NCBI RefSeq assembly: GCF_003545715.1
Contig: NZ_QVNU01000003.1
Location: forward strand, 620,001-684,000
Reading direction: 5' to 3'
Length of the DNA: 64,000 bases
DNA from: Taibaiella koreensis
GTDB lineage: Bacteria; Bacteroidota; Bacteroidia; Chitinophagales; Chitinophagaceae
The notes beneath the pieces are model-generated. The model did no database searches. It saw only the letters and a list, made by a program, of their open reading frames with translations, and was not told the origin of the DNA. Of the stretch, positions 57,641-63,946 are shown one piece after another. A program made the translations under genes and the position numbers. How positions within the stretch are numbered: the stretch's first letter is position 1; every line of letters begins with the position of its first letter.

Positions 57641-58258
57641 CTATACAAATTTCATTTGTGTAGCCAGCCGGATCAAGACCGCCGTATTCTTTACATTGAA
57701 TTTTGCCAGCAAGTGCTTTCTGTGGGTATCGATGGTCGTTGTGCTTACAAACAGCCGCTCTGCCATCTCTGCATTGGTCATGCCCTCGGCAATAAGCTGC
57801 AGTACCTCTGTTTCCCGTCGTGTGAGCACAGGGGCATCGGCCGTTTCGTTCTTTTTGATCATTTCGGAGGCCTCCAGGCTCAGGTATTGCCTGCGTTGCA
57901 TTACGGTCTCTATGGCTTTCAGTATCTCTGCCTTTGATGCATTCTTAAGCAGGTAGCCCGATGCGCCCTTGTCCAGCATCCTGGAGATAAAGCTGAGCTG
58001 GTTAAACGTGCTTAAACCGATAACTTTTACGCCGGGATAGCGTTGCAGCACCTCTCCGCAAAGCTCGATGCCGCTGGTATCCGGTAGGTTAATATCCATC
58101 AGGATAACATCCGGTGTCTGTGTCCGGAGATAAGATAAACAGGCTGCCGCGTTATAGGCATATCCCAGCCAATCGATCTGCGGTTCCTGCTCCAGCATCG
58201 ACCTGATGCCCTCAATCACCATGTAGTGATCATCTACTATAAACAGCTTTGTTTTCAT
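57641..58258 (-). CDS. NarL/LuxR-type response regulator of the second TPR kinase pair
   Basis: 205 residues. Receiver with VDDHYMVIEG, phosphoacceptor Asp55 in ILMDINLPD and Lys in GYLLKNASKAE, then a LuxR helix-turn-helix (LTRRETEVLQLIAEGMTNAE, RLFVSTTTIDTHRKHLLAKF). It overlaps the kinase gene by 4 bases (ATGA), so the two are coupled. Same design as the regulator at 27680, but only moderately similar in sequence. Its nearest non-repeat neighbours upstream of the operon are the small peptide genes at 60476-60910, a possible target. Confidence 0.94.
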   Translation of the reverse strand: MKTKLFIVDDHYMVIEGIRSMLEQEPQIDWLGYAYNAAACLSYLRTQTPDVILMDINLPDTSGIELCGEVLQRYPGVKVIGLSTFNQLSFISRMLDKGASGYLLKNASKAEILKAIETVMQRRQYLSLEASEMIKKNETADAPVLTRRETEVLQLIAEGMTNAEMAERLFVSTTTIDTHRKHLLAKFNVKNTAVLIRLATQMKFV

Positions 58259-60207
58259 CGTGCAATGAATTCAATGAATACGGAAGTCCCGACCGATGGC
58301 GCAGATTGTATATGCAGCTTGCCGTTGTGGTAGTCCAGCCGTGAGCGGATATTTTTCCAGCCGATCCCTTCAGCTGTTTTTAATGCATCGACATCAAATC
58401 CTTTACCGTCGTCTTCTACGGTAAGCGTTAGCAGGCCGGCTTCCCGGGTTGCCTGTACCATTACTTTGCGTGCCGAAGCATGTTTGATGGCATTGTTCAG
58501 CAGCTCCTGCACTATCCTGTATACGGTAATAGCGAGGGAATGTTCAACAGGAACCTTTTCCAGACCCATAGAGAGATAGGAAACCGCCACTACGCCGCTT
58601 ACCGACAGCTGGTTGCAGAAATCGCTCAGCGCAGCATCCAGGCCAAATTTCGTTAAGGATTCCGGCATCATATTGTGTGCCACCCGGCGCATCTCCGTTA
58701 TAGAATGGTCCAGCATATGAATGCTGTAGTCAAATGTTTTCCCTTGTTCTGCTTCCATAGCCACACTGGCCTTGATCGTGCCCAGGGAGTGCTTTATCCC
58801 CGAGAGCATGCCGCCCAGCCCGTCGTGCAGGTCTTTGGCCAGGCGCGACCGTTCCTGCTCTTCTCCCTTAAGAATAGCTTCGCTGGCCGTTAGTTTTTTT
58901 TCTCTTTCCAGCTCGGCGATGCGTTGCTTTTGTATCTTTTGCTTGTTCTTGATGTTCCGGTAGATCAGCAAGGCGAGCAGCAGTAGCAGCAGGGCTCCAA
59001 TGCCCAGGGCCAGGGTAATGCTTTTGTGCTGCCGGAGGGTTAATTGATATAGTTTCTTATCGGCTTGTAGTGATTTGATGGCCGCCTGGTTTTTTTCAAA
59101 TTCATACCTGGCCTCGTTGTTGCTGATAACGGTTTGGTTTTTTTCACCGATAATAGAATCATTTAAGGCCTGTGCCTGCTTCTGGTAAGCAAGGGCCACT
59201 TTGTAATTTCCCCTGTGCTCATTGAGCGTTGCCGCCTTAAGCAATAAGTCCTTCCGCTCATACTTTGTTTCGAGCTGTATTGCCAGCTGTAACCCCTGCT
59301 GTATGGCCTTCTCGGCCAACGCAAAGTTGCGGGTTTGTATATAGAGATCAGCCTTGCCCATATAGGCATACATTTCGTATTCCGGTACCTGCTTTTGCCT
59401 GGAAAGGGCAATCACCTTATCGAAATAGTATGCGGCGGGAACGCTATTGTTTTGCCCGCTATAGACGCCGGCTTTGCCCAGCCAGGCATCGAGGAACGAG
59501 ATATCATCGTGCTGCTCCCCAGCTATGTTTTCTATCTTATGAAATAGCACGAGCGCCGTATCGTACTGCTTCAGGTATACCGCCGCAGTAGCCAGGTTGT
59601 ACAGGCTGGAAGCTACTGCCATATCATCCTTCAGCTGCTGCGCATACTGCAATGCACGTTGTGCATATTGCTTCGCTTTTTCAAATTGTGCCAGGGACAG
59701 GAATACCGCAGCGAGGTTATTGTTAGCGAGGCGTTGCAGCTTTATATCAGCGATCTGTTCTGCGTATTTTTTGGATTCGAGGTAATGTGCGGCCGCAGCA
59801 TTAAAATCGGACAGGTACTGCCATTCGCTGCCGACGTTCAGATTAGCCACTGCCAGGTCTCTGGGACTGCCTATTTGCTTATAGATTTCCAGGGCCTTTT
59901 TTGAATCATCCAGTGCTTTCCGGAACTGCCCCTTATTGTTGAGCACAGTGATGGCATTACCGGCATAGGCCGCTTCTCCTCTCCTGTAGCCTATTGCCTG
60001 TGCTAGTTGTTGCGCCTTACGATAATAGTATAGCGCAGAGTCTCCATCCTTTTCTTCAAGCAAAGCCCCATAGCTATAATACAGGGAAACGGTGGCCGTA
60101 TCCTGGCGCGCAACAGCTATAAGACGCTGCAGGCTGTCTTTCGCATTTTCCTGCCGGGCGAAAGCCATATTGGATAGCAGACCCAAAATGATAGCTGCTT
60201 TTTTCAT
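58255..60207 (-). CDS. TPR-containing sensor histidine kinase, second copy of the architecture
   Basis: 650 residues, the same length as the kinase at 25720. Signal peptide (MKKAAIILGLLSNMAFA), about eight TPR-like repeats in the periplasm (~20-340), a coiled coil, one membrane helix (~398-418), and a HisKA_3 kinase with the box RSRLAKDLHDGLGGMLSGIK (His461). The ATPase domain contains LLNNAIKHASARKV, VEDDGKGFDVDA and GIGWKNIRSRLDYHNGK. It should phosphorylate the regulator encoded by the overlapping downstream gene. Signal unknown. Confidence 0.93.
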   Translation of the reverse strand: MKKAAIILGLLSNMAFARQENAKDSLQRLIAVARQDTATVSLYYSYGALLEEKDGDSALYYYRKAQQLAQAIGYRRGEAAYAGNAITVLNNKGQFRKALDDSKKALEIYKQIGSPRDLAVANLNVGSEWQYLSDFNAAAAHYLESKKYAEQIADIKLQRLANNNLAAVFLSLAQFEKAKQYAQRALQYAQQLKDDMAVASSLYNLATAAVYLKQYDTALVLFHKIENIAGEQHDDISFLDAWLGKAGVYSGQNNSVPAAYYFDKVIALSRQKQVPEYEMYAYMGKADLYIQTRNFALAEKAIQQGLQLAIQLETKYERKDLLLKAATLNEHRGNYKVALAYQKQAQALNDSIIGEKNQTVISNNEARYEFEKNQAAIKSLQADKKLYQLTLRQHKSITLALGIGALLLLLLALLIYRNIKNKQKIQKQRIAELEREKKLTASEAILKGEEQERSRLAKDLHDGLGGMLSGIKHSLGTIKASVAMEAEQGKTFDYSIHMLDHSITEMRRVAHNMMPESLTKFGLDAALSDFCNQLSVSGVVAVSYLSMGLEKVPVEHSLAITVYRIVQELLNNAIKHASARKVMVQATREAGLLTLTVEDDGKGFDVDALKTAEGIGWKNIRSRLDYHNGKLHIQSAPSVGTSVFIEFIAR

Positions 60208-60475: not shown

Positions 60476-60655
60476 ATGAAAAAGACCCTGAAAAAACTCG
60501 ACCTGCGCAAAAAGCAAATCGTTCCACTCATCGCTGCCGACCTGGTATTGGGCGGTCTGCGAAAACCCAATACCTCCGGCAATACCGGTAAAGGTGGTGG
60601 CTGGACCTGCGATAGCTGCATCACTATGCCCGGCCAGAAAGGATGCCCTAAGTAG
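60476..60655 (+). CDS. Small Cys-containing peptide, probable RiPP (lanthipeptide-type) precursor, copy 1
   Basis: 59 residues, ATG 60476. The leader-like N-terminus MKKTLKKLDLRKKQIVPL fits the K-L-x-L-x-K-x-x-I pattern of Bacteroidetes class I lanthipeptide leaders and runs to a Gly-Gly (26-27, LVLGGL). The C-terminal part has Cys45, Cys48 and Cys57 and three hydroxy residues near them (Thr44, Ser47, Thr50): WTCDSCITMPGQKGCPK. The second copy 81 bases downstream preserves this part at 23 of 24 positions while the leader varies more, as expected for a precursor family. No LanB/LanC, YcaO or radical-SAM enzyme is in the window, so maturation is unproven. An unmodified secreted peptide or a metal-binding peptide is possible. 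Confidence 0.72.
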   Translation: MKKTLKKLDLRKKQIVPLIAADLVLGGLRKPNTSGNTGKGGGWTCDSCITMPGQKGCPK

Positions 60656-60736
60656 TCGTTCTATCTGCTGCAACAGCATTACCGGAAGCGATCTTTGTTT
60701 CCTCATTTATCCTGTAACCCCTATAAAACTAAAGTC

Positions 60737-60910
60737 ATGAAAAAGAACCTGCAAAAACTCGACCTGGGCAAAAAGCAAATCGTTCAGCTCACGGCCACGA
60801 ACCAGGTATGGGGTGGTCTGCAGAGAGCCAATGCCAATACCGGCAAGGGCGGCGGATGGACCTGCGACAGCTGTATCTCTATGCCGGGCCAGAAAGGATG
60901 CCCTAAATAA
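60737..60910 (+). CDS. Small Cys-containing peptide, probable RiPP precursor, copy 2
   Basis: 57 residues from ATG 60737; the frame opens at 60695 but that extension has no counterpart in copy 1. Leader MKKNLQKLDLGKKQIVQL, Gly-Gly at 26-27 (QVWGGL), then NTGKGGGWTCDSC and ISMPGQKGCPK with Cys43, Cys46 and Cys55. The only change from copy 1 over this last part is Thr to Ser (residue 48), which keeps a dehydratable side chain. A strong terminator follows at 60926. With copy 1 it forms a two-gene operon on the plus strand, divergent from the kinase/regulator pair and convergent with the ABC transporter. Confidence 0.74.
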   Translation: MKKNLQKLDLGKKQIVQLTATNQVWGGLQRANANTGKGGGWTCDSCISMPGQKGCPK

Positions 60911-60925
60911 ACATTCCTTTGGAGG

Positions 60926-60959
60926 CGAGGGGCTATCTGGTAACGTGGATAGCCCCTCG
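60926..60959 (+). terminator. Intrinsic terminator of the small-peptide operon
   Basis: CGAGGGGCTATC / GATAGCCCCTCG, 12 perfect pairs with a 10-base loop, followed by TGTTCTTTTTA, 15 bases after the stop of copy 2. Confidence 0.8.
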
Positions 60960-61040
60960 TGTTCTTTTTAGGAGACACAGTAGCAAAATTGCGAAAGATA
61001 AGAAGCGCAAAGCCTGTCGTATTCTTGCTCTGAAAGCAGA

Positions 61041-62876
61041 TCAGGCGATGCTTTGTAGCTGGGTAAGCCGGTAATAGCTGCCCGACTCGTTGTTCATCAG
61101 TTCTGTGTGGCTACCTTGTTCTACGATCTCGCCATCCTGGAGTATGATAATCTCATCGGCTTCTTTGATCGTGCTTAGCCGGTGTGCGATCACAATAGTG
61201 GTACGGCCTTTCATCAGGTTGTTCAGGGCATCCTGCACCAGTCGCTCCGATTCGGTATCCAATGCTGATGTCGCTTCGTCCAGTATCAATATGGATGGAT
61301 CTTTAAATACCGCTCTGGCAATGCTGAGGCGCTGCCGCTGACCGCCGGAAAGACGCATGCCACGGTCGCCGATGACGGTATGGTAGCCCTCTTCCGTATC
61401 CATAATAAAGGCATGCGCATTAGCCGCCCTGGCCGCATGCACCACATCTTCCATGCGTGCAGACGGATGTCCGAGGGCAATATTGTTGAATATGGTATCG
61501 TTAAAAAGAATGATCTCCTGTGTTACAAAGCTCATATGGCTACGCAGGGACTCCATAGTATACTGCTTTACGTTTTTACCATCGATCATCACCGCGCCCC
61601 CGGTAACATCGTAGAACCGCGGGATCAGGTCGGCAATGGTCGACTTCCCTACGCCTGATGGCCCTACAAGGGCAATGGTTTTCCCTTTTTCGATCCTGAT
61701 GTTTATTCCTTTCAGCACAGGCTTGTCTGTATAGCCAAAGCCTACGCCATCGAAGGTTATCTCCCGGCAGAAAGCCGGCAGCGGTATCGCATCGGGAGCA
61801 TCTGCCACCTCCACTTTTTTATCCAGTATTTCCAATATACGCTCGCCCGACGCCCGTCCCGTCTGCATATTGGACAAGGCCGTCACAATAGCCTTTGCCG
61901 GACGGATGACCTGGGAAAATATGGCGATGAAAGCGATAAAAGCGCTGGCCTGCAGGCCGTTGTTACGGGCCAGCACCAGTCCACCGCCATAAACGAGGAT
62001 ACAGGCCACGACCAGCACGCCGGCGGCCTCTGAAAAAGCCGGCGCCAGCTCCCTTTTGTTGAAGGATGCCAGGCTGGCTTTGCGGTAAAAATCATTTTCC
62101 CTGCTAAATCTTTTTACAACAAAGCCGGTAGCATTGAACGCCCTTATAATACGCATGCCCAGCAGGGATTCATCGATGAGTGTGAGCAGACGGCCCGCCG
62201 AAGCCTGTACGTCCTTGGCTTCCCTGCGCAGCTTTCTGGTAACCGCTGCAATAGCCAGCGCAGAGACAGGGATAATGATAAGGGTAAATAAGGTAAGTTT
62301 TGCCGATATGGCAAAGAGCGCGATGAAGTAACCGATCATCACGTAAGGCTCCTTGAACAATACTTCCAGTGAGCTCGCGGCGGCGCCTTCTATCCCGTAC
62401 ACATCCGTATTCAACCTGGAAATAAGGTCTCCCTTGTGCTCCCGGGTAAAATACCCCAGGTGCAATTGGTTGATCTTTTCGAAAAGGGCTTCCCTCAGAC
62501 GCTTTACCAGCAAGGTCCTTGTGTTGATGAGGCAGCGTTGGGCCAGGTAACGGAAAATATTGGTCAGCAGTACCGCCGACACGATCATTATGGCGAGGAA
62601 ATAAAGCGCATATGCCGGGTTGCTCGTTTTGAAATGGTATATCAGGTGATAGAAATAACTTTTAAAGAAAGAAGCAGAGCATTCAAACGACGGCGCAGTG
62701 GCGTAAGCGGTGGCATCGGCTGTATTGACGGGATCAAAAAGAAAATTGAGCAGAGGTATAATGAGCGCAAACTGGAAGATACCGAAAAAGACACCCAACA
62801 GGGTAAATGCGAAAAAGGGAAAAATAAACCGGTGGAAAGGCCTCACATATTGCAGTAAACGGCGGTATATCTTCAT
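61041..62876 (-). CDS. MsbA-like ABC transporter, fused permease and ATPase
   Basis: 611 residues from ATG 62876 (MKIYRRLLQYVRPFHR); the frame continues to 62948, overlapping the glycosyltransferase gene, without support. Six membrane helices (~20-330) then the ATPase: Walker A GPSGVGKS, Q-loop FVTQEIILFNDTI, signature LSGGQRQRLSIARA, Walker B ILILDEATSALD, switch His IVIAHRLSTI. There is no N-terminal C39 peptidase domain, so it is not a leader-cleaving bacteriocin exporter. Best matches by pattern are lipid A/lipid flippases of the MsbA type. It lies 17 bases after the glycosyltransferase gene on the same strand, pointing to glycolipid export; transport of the nearby peptides is a weaker possibility. 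Confidence 0.93.
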   Translation of the reverse strand: MKIYRRLLQYVRPFHRFIFPFFAFTLLGVFFGIFQFALIIPLLNFLFDPVNTADATAYATAPSFECSASFFKSYFYHLIYHFKTSNPAYALYFLAIMIVSAVLLTNIFRYLAQRCLINTRTLLVKRLREALFEKINQLHLGYFTREHKGDLISRLNTDVYGIEGAAASSLEVLFKEPYVMIGYFIALFAISAKLTLFTLIIIPVSALAIAAVTRKLRREAKDVQASAGRLLTLIDESLLGMRIIRAFNATGFVVKRFSRENDFYRKASLASFNKRELAPAFSEAAGVLVVACILVYGGGLVLARNNGLQASAFIAFIAIFSQVIRPAKAIVTALSNMQTGRASGERILEILDKKVEVADAPDAIPLPAFCREITFDGVGFGYTDKPVLKGINIRIEKGKTIALVGPSGVGKSTIADLIPRFYDVTGGAVMIDGKNVKQYTMESLRSHMSFVTQEIILFNDTIFNNIALGHPSARMEDVVHAARAANAHAFIMDTEEGYHTVIGDRGMRLSGGQRQRLSIARAVFKDPSILILDEATSALDTESERLVQDALNNLMKGRTTIVIAHRLSTIKEADEIIILQDGEIVEQGSHTELMNNESGSYYRLTQLQSIA

Positions 62877-62893
62877 AAGGGTAATGTTAGGTA

Positions 62894-63946
62894 TTAGTAT
62901 AAAGTACGATAAACTTCCAGATAAGCGGTTGCTGCCTTTTTCCAGCAAAAAGATTCGCTTCGTTTTTGTATCTGGTCCCGCATTTCCTGTAGCCGGTAGC
63001 GGGCCATACCATCGGAAAAGACGCTGTTCATATGGTCTTCGCTGAAATCATGAAAGTAAAAGGCGGCATCGCGGCCTATTTCAGGTAAGGCTGTGCGCCC
63101 CGACAGGAAGACGGGCTTACCAACCGACATCGCTTCCATTACTGTGAGGCCAAAACCCTCGGCGAGAGAGGGCAATACGAATGCGTAGCAGTTGTGGTAA
63201 TACCAGGATTTTTCATTTTCCGATATGTTGCCCAGCATCCGGAGCCGGTGACTTACCCCCAGATCACTGGCTATGCGGTGGATAAGGGATTCATAATCGC
63301 TATCCTGTCGCGGCCCTGCAATCAACAGCTCCATCTGTTCCTGTTGCCTTAGTAGGGGCAGCAGCACATGGAAATTCTTCTTGGCGCAAAGGGTACCGAG
63401 GGAGAACAGGAAAGGCCTTGCCGGTTTGTAAGAATAGGGGAATAAAGACGGCTGCTCCAGGTGGTTGGTTCCATTGTGGATCGTATAAACCTGCTTGTTG
63501 CCGGTGTCGCAGTGCCGTTGTACATCATCGTAGCAGAAACGGGATACGCAGACGATGGCATCGCTTCTATCGATATTGGCCTGCAGGTGTCGCAGGTACC
63601 GCTCTTTTTTGGCTTTGCTCTTCGGTTCGTAAAGGAAATTGAGATCGTGTATGCTCAGCACTACCTTGATCCTCCGGTTCCGGAACGGCAGGTAATCGGA
63701 GTTCTGGTAGGTACCGTGCCAGATATCAAAAGAACGCAGCGCGGGCATGAGGAACTTCCGGAGAGGATGCTGGTACAATACAGGGCCCTGGAAAGCCGGC
63801 ACAGCATTGGGAGGAATAAAGAATGCCATCTGCTCCCTCGCCGGATCCTGCTGCCGGGCTATATGAAGACCCAGGTTAAGGCAATAATGATACAGACCGG
63901 TATTGCTGTACTTCATCCGTTCGCAATCGAATACGATATGTTTCAT
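62894..63946 (-). CDS. Glycosyltransferase, GT4-like (GT-B fold)
   Basis: 350 residues. Acceptor half starts MKHIVFDCERMKYSNTGLYH and includes FDIWHGTYQNSDYLPFRN and SIHDLNFLYEPKSK; the donor half contains LGTLCAKKNFHVLLPLLRQQ, ISENEKSWYYHNCYAFVLPS and the sugar-nucleotide E-x7-E region SLAEGFGLTVMEAMSVGKPV, then SGRTALPEIGRDAAFYF. This is the GT4/GT1-group pattern used for LPS, capsule or other surface sugars. Sugar and acceptor unknown. First gene in view of an operon with the ABC transporter; another reading frame ends 6 bases upstream. Confidence 0.92.
   Translation of the reverse strand: MKHIVFDCERMKYSNTGLYHYCLNLGLHIARQQDPAREQMAFFIPPNAVPAFQGPVLYQHPLRKFLMPALRSFDIWHGTYQNSDYLPFRNRRIKVVLSIHDLNFLYEPKSKAKKERYLRHLQANIDRSDAIVCVSRFCYDDVQRHCDTGNKQVYTIHNGTNHLEQPSLFPYSYKPARPFLFSLGTLCAKKNFHVLLPLLRQQEQMELLIAGPRQDSDYESLIHRIASDLGVSHRLRMLGNISENEKSWYYHNCYAFVLPSLAEGFGLTVMEAMSVGKPVFLSGRTALPEIGRDAAFYFHDFSEDHMNSVFSDGMARYRLQEMRDQIQKRSESFCWKKAATAYLEVYRTLY

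Follow-up and report, generated by a model that had tools for sequence, protein, structure and literature searches.

Class I lanthipeptide precursors (LanA) that carry an LxLxKx5L leader with a double-glycine end, and whose clusters include a C39 protease, have been described in the Bacteroidetes (PMC7268733). Elsewhere in the phylum, PedA15.2 of Pedobacter lusitanus NL19 is processed with a C39 protease, as cited in PMC12328550, and the ChmABC (Chryseobacterium) and RuiABC (Runella) systems dehydrate and cyclise in E. coli with the native GluRS and tRNA-Glu (PMC9993889). Scattered precursor libraries are described from marine picocyanobacteria as the prochlorosins and synechococsins (ProcA/ProcM and SyncA/SyncM), with 29 to 83 precursors per genome (PMC10783134, PMC9872173) and up to 83 per strain (PMC10783134). 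Here, a 64,000-nt stretch of the Taibaiella koreensis genome (the window) was analysed together with the rest of the genome, and two small tandem genes within it most probably encode two near-isoforms of one precursor, which belongs to a genome-wide class I lanthipeptide-type library and is modified in trans.

The coordinates and lengths of the two ORFs (59 and 57 codons), as reported in the first-pass annotation of the window, were verified from the ORF list. The pair and its surroundings contain the following features, those assigned to the two-component system being tied to the peptides by position only.

57641..58258, minus strand: NarL/LuxR-type response regulator, the partner of the kinase (Pfam)
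58255..60207, minus strand: TPR sensor histidine kinase with HisKA_3 and HATPase_c domains (Pfam)
60476..60655, plus strand: precursor peptide gene 1, an ATG-start ORF of 59 aa (coordinates with stop)
60476..60556, plus strand: leader of peptide 1, residues 1-27, with its Gly-Gly end at 60551-60556 (HMM alignment KK..KL.L.K..I..L...GG)
60557..60652, plus strand: core of peptide 1, residues 28-59, LRKPNTSGNTGKGGGWTCDSCITMPGQKGCPK, with the conserved part at residues 36-59 (60581-60652; alignment with copy 2)
60737..60910, plus strand: precursor peptide gene 2, an ORF of 57 aa from the ATG at 60737 (coordinates with stop)
60737..60817, plus strand: leader of peptide 2, residues 1-27, with Gly-Gly at 60812-60817 (alignment to the pool leader HMM, see below)
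60818..60907, plus strand: core of peptide 2, residues 28-57, LQRANANTGKGGGWTCDSCISMPGQKGCPK, with the conserved part at residues 34-57 (60836-60907; alignment and codon comparison)
60925..60970, plus strand: intrinsic terminator 3' of gene 2, with a 15-pair stem, a loop of 6 and a T-rich tail

Alignment of the two peptides confirmed the shared leader MKK-x-L-x-KLDL-x-KKQIV with a Gly-Gly at positions 26-27, which in peptide 1 is presumably the C39 cleavage site, and a C-terminal part that is identical at 23 of 24 positions, the single difference being Thr50/Ser48. The first-pass annotation had noted three Cys with three Ser/Thr next to them in this part; three Cys and four Ser/Thr positions (T37/T35, T44/T42, S47/S45 and T50/S48) are conserved between the copies. 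For gene 2, the mechanical ORF list gave an alternative start, the TTG at 60695, upstream of the ATG. The two genes are separated by 81 bp, and the terminator downstream of gene 2 (15 pairs and T tail at 60925-60960; folding energy -35.5 kcal/mol, z -6.1) is as strong as had been claimed; this gap and the terminator suggest that the tandem genes form one operon.

A comparison of the copies at the codon level bore out the claim of a conserved core behind a variable leader. The 24 core codons comprised 14 identical codons, 9 synonymous differences and 1 conservative change (Thr/Ser), while the 27 leader codons showed 2 synonymous vs 9 non-synonymous differences (Fisher p 0.0019 for the contrast between core and leader). 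The core of the pair is thus under purifying selection and is kept while the leader drifts, a pattern that tells real constraint from a recent duplication. A constant core with a drifting leader makes the pair an unusual case.

We then asked how the leaders relate to known and resident families. The pair had no match in a Pfam search. Against the NCBIfam model NF038153 (lant_leader_L1a; curated cut-off 22 bits), peptide 2 scored 13.6 bits (E 0.056) and peptide 1 gave no match, so that the pair is not filed under this family. An HMM made without the pair, from 126 leaders found elsewhere in the genome, scored peptide 2 at 24.0 bits (E 5e-7) and peptide 1 at 21.9 bits (E 2.4e-6) among the 276 ORFs of the window. 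It picked the pair alone: the next ORF had an E of 0.58, and the best score in 1000 shuffles was 9.0 bits. Among 6,638 ORFs from 800 kb of precursor-free sequence of the same genome, no score exceeded 11.9 bits. By the pool leader HMM, the pair belongs to its own genome's pool of GG-leader precursors.

The size of this pool was estimated with NF038153, which gave 129 matches in the genome (5.94 Mb, 24 contigs), about 90 of them over the cut-off; in 14 control genomes no match exceeded it. Two matches were not intact precursors, one having an early stop and the other being a metalloprotease. Without the pair, the pool comprises 127 intact ORFs, which encode peptides of 50 to 109 aa; their MKK...KL.L.K..I..L leader nearly always ends in Gly-Gly (one lacks both GG and GA). 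Cys makes up 13.5% of the cores vs 0.2% of the leaders, and all 126 cores that follow a recognisable GG or GA contain Cys and Ser/Thr. Overall, about 129 GG-leader, Cys/Ser/Thr-rich precursors, the pair included, lie at 96 sites, 72 of which hold a single precursor. A LanB or LanC gene is found within 5 kb of only 9 of the 129 and within 20 kb of 13. With few enzymes and numerous precursors that are scattered over the genome and join one type of leader to diverse cores, the genome matches the pattern of a dispersed library.

The first-pass annotation had found no maturation enzyme in the window and had proposed enzymes in trans or, failing that, a different kind of short secreted peptide, naming the lack of any RiPP enzyme in the genome among the grounds for rejection. 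No maturation enzyme was seen next to the pair: the adjoining ABC protein (61041-62948, minus strand, convergent) is MsbA-like, and the C39 matches of the genome lie on other contigs. Far from the pair, LanB, LanC and a C39 exporter are all present, so that this ground for rejection does not apply. The one full LanB, on contig C16, has both dehydratase domains, stands in a row with a C39-ABC exporter and HlyD, and adjoins its own precursor, which carries the common pool leader. Four LanCs are encoded on four contigs, each with at least one adjoining precursor. The HG, WCYG and CHG motifs are intact in all four; NisC-type cyclases draw their catalytic His and zinc ligands from these motifs. Precursors beside LanB or LanC bear the same leader as the orphans, and this common leader family, with some of its members next to the enzymes, supports reading the pair as class I lanthipeptide-type RiPP precursors. 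A second, shorter LanB (922 aa; L097:4272-7040, plus strand, contig C20) has both dehydratase domains recognisable and adjoins a LytTR-type regulator; neither a precursor nor a LanC lies within about 5 kb of it.

The pair combines the class I leader and a core with three Cys and four conserved Ser/Thr with a genome that encodes LanB and LanC at a distance, and the Gly-Gly at 26-27 in both copies with a C39 exporter elsewhere in the genome. The nearest enzymes are on other contigs, and the pair is not clustered with them; such clustering is usual in class I but lies outside its definition. Since the defining chemistry is (methyl)lanthionine in the product, we infer the pair's class I membership. 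In the proposed mechanism, the short leader (KL.L.K..I..L...GG) would be recognised in trans by a LanB dehydratase from another contig, which would dehydrate Ser/Thr of the Cys-containing core. Ring closure to (methyl)lanthionine, by addition of the Cys thiols, would fall to one of the four separately encoded LanCs. Finally, the exporter encoded next to LanB, an ABC protein with a C39 peptidase, would cleave behind the Gly-Gly and secrete the core through an HlyD channel. That these enzymes act on the pair is a prediction from sequence, as are the pattern of rings, the export step and what the product does (perhaps antagonism or signalling).

An alternative explanation is that the pair forms a private circuit with the divergent TPR kinase and NarL regulator, as their dedicated signal or target, and is no product of the pool. 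The Pfam domains agree with the earlier description of these neighbours, the kinase gene and the pair are divergent and 269 bp apart, and a response regulator lies within 5 kb at 30 of the 96 precursor sites vs 17 expected (1 of 1000 shuffles as high). However, there is no excess of response regulators within 1.5 kb and a weak one within 3 kb, and the genome, with 126 receiver domains, is rich in two-component pairs. This alternative, which we consider unlikely, is moreover one about regulation and as such compatible with a lanthipeptide library. Sensor-kinase adjacency was likewise not adopted as a rule for the whole pool, because the excess was modest at 4-5 kb and absent at 1.5 kb. At the sibling loci examined, the kinase, the regulator and the ABC protein match distant paralogs only. 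The nearby two-component system is, by position only, a candidate regulator of the pair.

The relation between leader and enzymes was also followed across relatives. Among four genomes of the genus, the three with LanB have 123, 77 and 69 leader matches; the fourth (G103, 99% complete) has no LanB and 0 leader matches, the system having been lost or never gained. In 246 genomes of the family, LanB was present in 11 of the 12 leader-positive genomes vs 17 of the 234 others (p 6e-11, with shared ancestry uncorrected), and counts above seven leader matches occurred in this genus only. Between the genome and one sibling, 33 reciprocal-best pairs had alignable cores, with a core dN/dS of 0.09. In these, core Cys was conserved at 202 of 202 positions and 95% of Ser/Thr stayed Ser or Thr, vs 67% conservation of the residues besides Cys, Ser/Thr, Gly and Pro. 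Conservation of Cys and Ser/Thr in orthologs of orphan precursors shows that genes which would escape enzyme-anchored mining are under selection.

The non-redundant cores of three genomes were further examined for spacing, with Cys fixed and the other residues shuffled. Ser/Thr showed an excess at precisely the fifth residue ahead of Cys and none at the fifth behind it (z 6.8, 8.8 and 3.7), and control (ordinary) genes had no such peak. In the same pool cores, Ser/Thr were depleted right after Cys. We interpret the Ser/Thr-x4-Cys excess as the footprint of rings that would join Ser/Thr to the Cys five residues later, possibly a genome-scale footprint of a preferred ring size. The window pair does not have this favoured spacing (nearest spacings 1, 4, 7 and 8).

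These results bear on a second alternative, that the genes encode unmodified secreted Cys-rich peptides whose leader serves C39 export only and whose Cys are engaged in disulfides or metal binding (CxxC...C). Its attractions are that the pair's core is Gly-rich with a CxxC motif, that the spacing of the pair's Ser/Thr differs from the one favoured in the pool, and that GG leaders serve unmodified bacteriocins and pheromones too. Yet in the orphan orthologs conservation of Cys and Ser/Thr is much higher than that of other residues, the Ser/Thr-x4-Cys footprint is directional, precursors vanish together with LanB in the genus, and precursors with the same leader adjoin LanB and LanC, all of which makes this explanation quite improbable. 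It is harder still to believe that the peptides are substrates of another RiPP enzyme (a radical SAM or YcaO enzyme, or the shorter LanB acting as a non-dehydratase), with LanB and LanC handling no more than a few of them: the genome searches for enzymes covered LanB, LanC and C39, and the isolation of the shorter LanB from precursors and LanC would fit, but the leaders co-occur with LanB, and their motif is the one published for class I LanAs of the phylum (PMC7268733). Chance ORFs, suggested by short length only, can be dismissed for practical purposes in view of the 9 synonymous vs 1 conservative changes in the core, the leader-HMM match and the strong terminator.

Relatives of the pair itself were also sought. 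An alignment search with the pair's core of the 246 family genomes and the four genus genomes gave no relative, nor did tblastn in plasmids and phages or a scan of 84,980 species with the back-translated leader, some of these collections possibly omitting the closest records to the source. The core pattern WTCxSCxxMPG, sought in contigs of genomes and viruses, matched chance frames throughout. Homologs with conserved Cys/Ser/Thr spacing in other genomes, named earlier as a check, were found for the pool, whose orthologs keep Cys and Ser/Thr, but not for the pair's core. As the core has no relatives outside the genome, its Cys/Ser/Thr spacing is testable between the two copies only, and the lack of a relative in the collections searched marks the pair as a species-specific item of the library.

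Two elements recur upstream of other pool genes. Ahead of 16 precursor genes of this genome and 18 of two siblings there is an H-type pseudoknot, 13-23 nt from the start codon; its copies include the following.

L112:5099-5162, minus strand: pseudoknot copy
L045:5115-5172, minus strand: pseudoknot copy
L062:4915-4982, plus strand: pseudoknot copy
L093:12539-12592, plus strand: pseudoknot copy
L151:6923-8233, plus strand: four pseudoknot copies
L180:3121-3558, minus strand: pseudoknot

Its architecture consists of P1 (YGCY/GGYR) and P2, with a CCCC-type loop and a GACAGGGG-type 3' strand. A first model built from 15 copies found more copies at sibling precursor starts, and a second model found more in the genome itself; in 800 kb of precursor-free sequence, the models found nothing above noise, so that its restriction to precursors holds for the sequence scanned. 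In an alignment of 30 sequences, 92% of cells were paired vs 45-49% when slid, and 44 cells were doubly changed vs 14 in shuffles. The pseudoknot had no match in Rfam even at E 5-10, and it was rejected as a known riboswitch, ten whole loci giving only two TPP riboswitches at the gathering score; with its strong covariation, it is a candidate new regulatory RNA. The two TPP riboswitches flank a precursor and LanC gene (L044:8775-8869 and L044:10829-10918, both minus strand). Through the upstream one, thiamine would control both the precursor and LanC; the downstream one lies ahead of a TonB-dependent receptor.

The second element is a palindrome, ACTGCA-N5-8-TGCAGT, that often stands just ahead of a TAnnTTT(G) box, which we take to be of the Bacteroidota type.

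L034, L040, L043, L053, L054, L081, L085 and L098: palindrome loci in the genome
L202, L203 and L204: palindrome loci in siblings

All palindrome-plus-box matches precede pool ORFs (8 of 8 in the genome and 3 of 3 in siblings), while 800 kb of control sequence contain no copy of the palindrome; palindrome and box are likely the operator of a precursor regulon. Both elements were discarded as regulators of the window pair, as neither is present upstream of it.

Taken together, there is about an even chance that the system is a class I counterpart of the prochlorosins, in which one or two LanBs and a set of four LanCs would act in trans on about 129 dispersed precursors, subsets would be controlled by a pseudoknot RNA and a palindromic operator that are not in Rfam, and the window pair would be a species-specific duplicated product. 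If a class I library of this size is real, the range of LanB and LanC also extends to very many unrelated cores, reached by way of a short common leader; this would be useful in peptide engineering and poses a question of specificity. The Ser/Thr-x4-Cys footprint in addition predicts a preferred ring size that is testable genome-wide across the pool. In the literature examined, which excludes subscription Pedobacter papers, we found no dispersed class I library of this size, and no claim of priority is made.

Compared with the class I LanAs described for the Bacteroidetes (NF038153, PMC7268733), the locus shares the leader motif, the Gly-Gly end, a Cys/Ser/Thr-rich core and the presence of LanB, LanC and C39 in the genome, but the pair scores below the cut-off and lies far from the enzymes, and its leader, of 27 aa, is shorter. 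The class of PMC7268733 was found beside synthetase genes, whereas about 120 of the 129 precursors here are orphans. The PedA15 series of Pedobacter lusitanus NL19 and the pinensins of Chitinophaga are class I lanthipeptides from the same phylum, and ChmABC and RuiABC are likewise class I LanA/B/C systems of Bacteroidota, but with clustered genes in place of a dispersed pool. It is mainly in marine cyanobacteria, with enzymes of another class, that libraries scattered in a comparable way are known. The pool resembles the prochlorosins and synechococsins in combining numerous dispersed precursors, alike in their conserved GG leader and divergent in their cores, with very few enzymes. Those families, however, are class II, with one bifunctional LanM and a Nif11-type leader, whereas the present genome has class I LanB and LanC for about 129 precursors, the leader being of the LxLxK type and the LanB having two domains. 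The pool thus works like a prochlorosin-type library but is not a member of that family.
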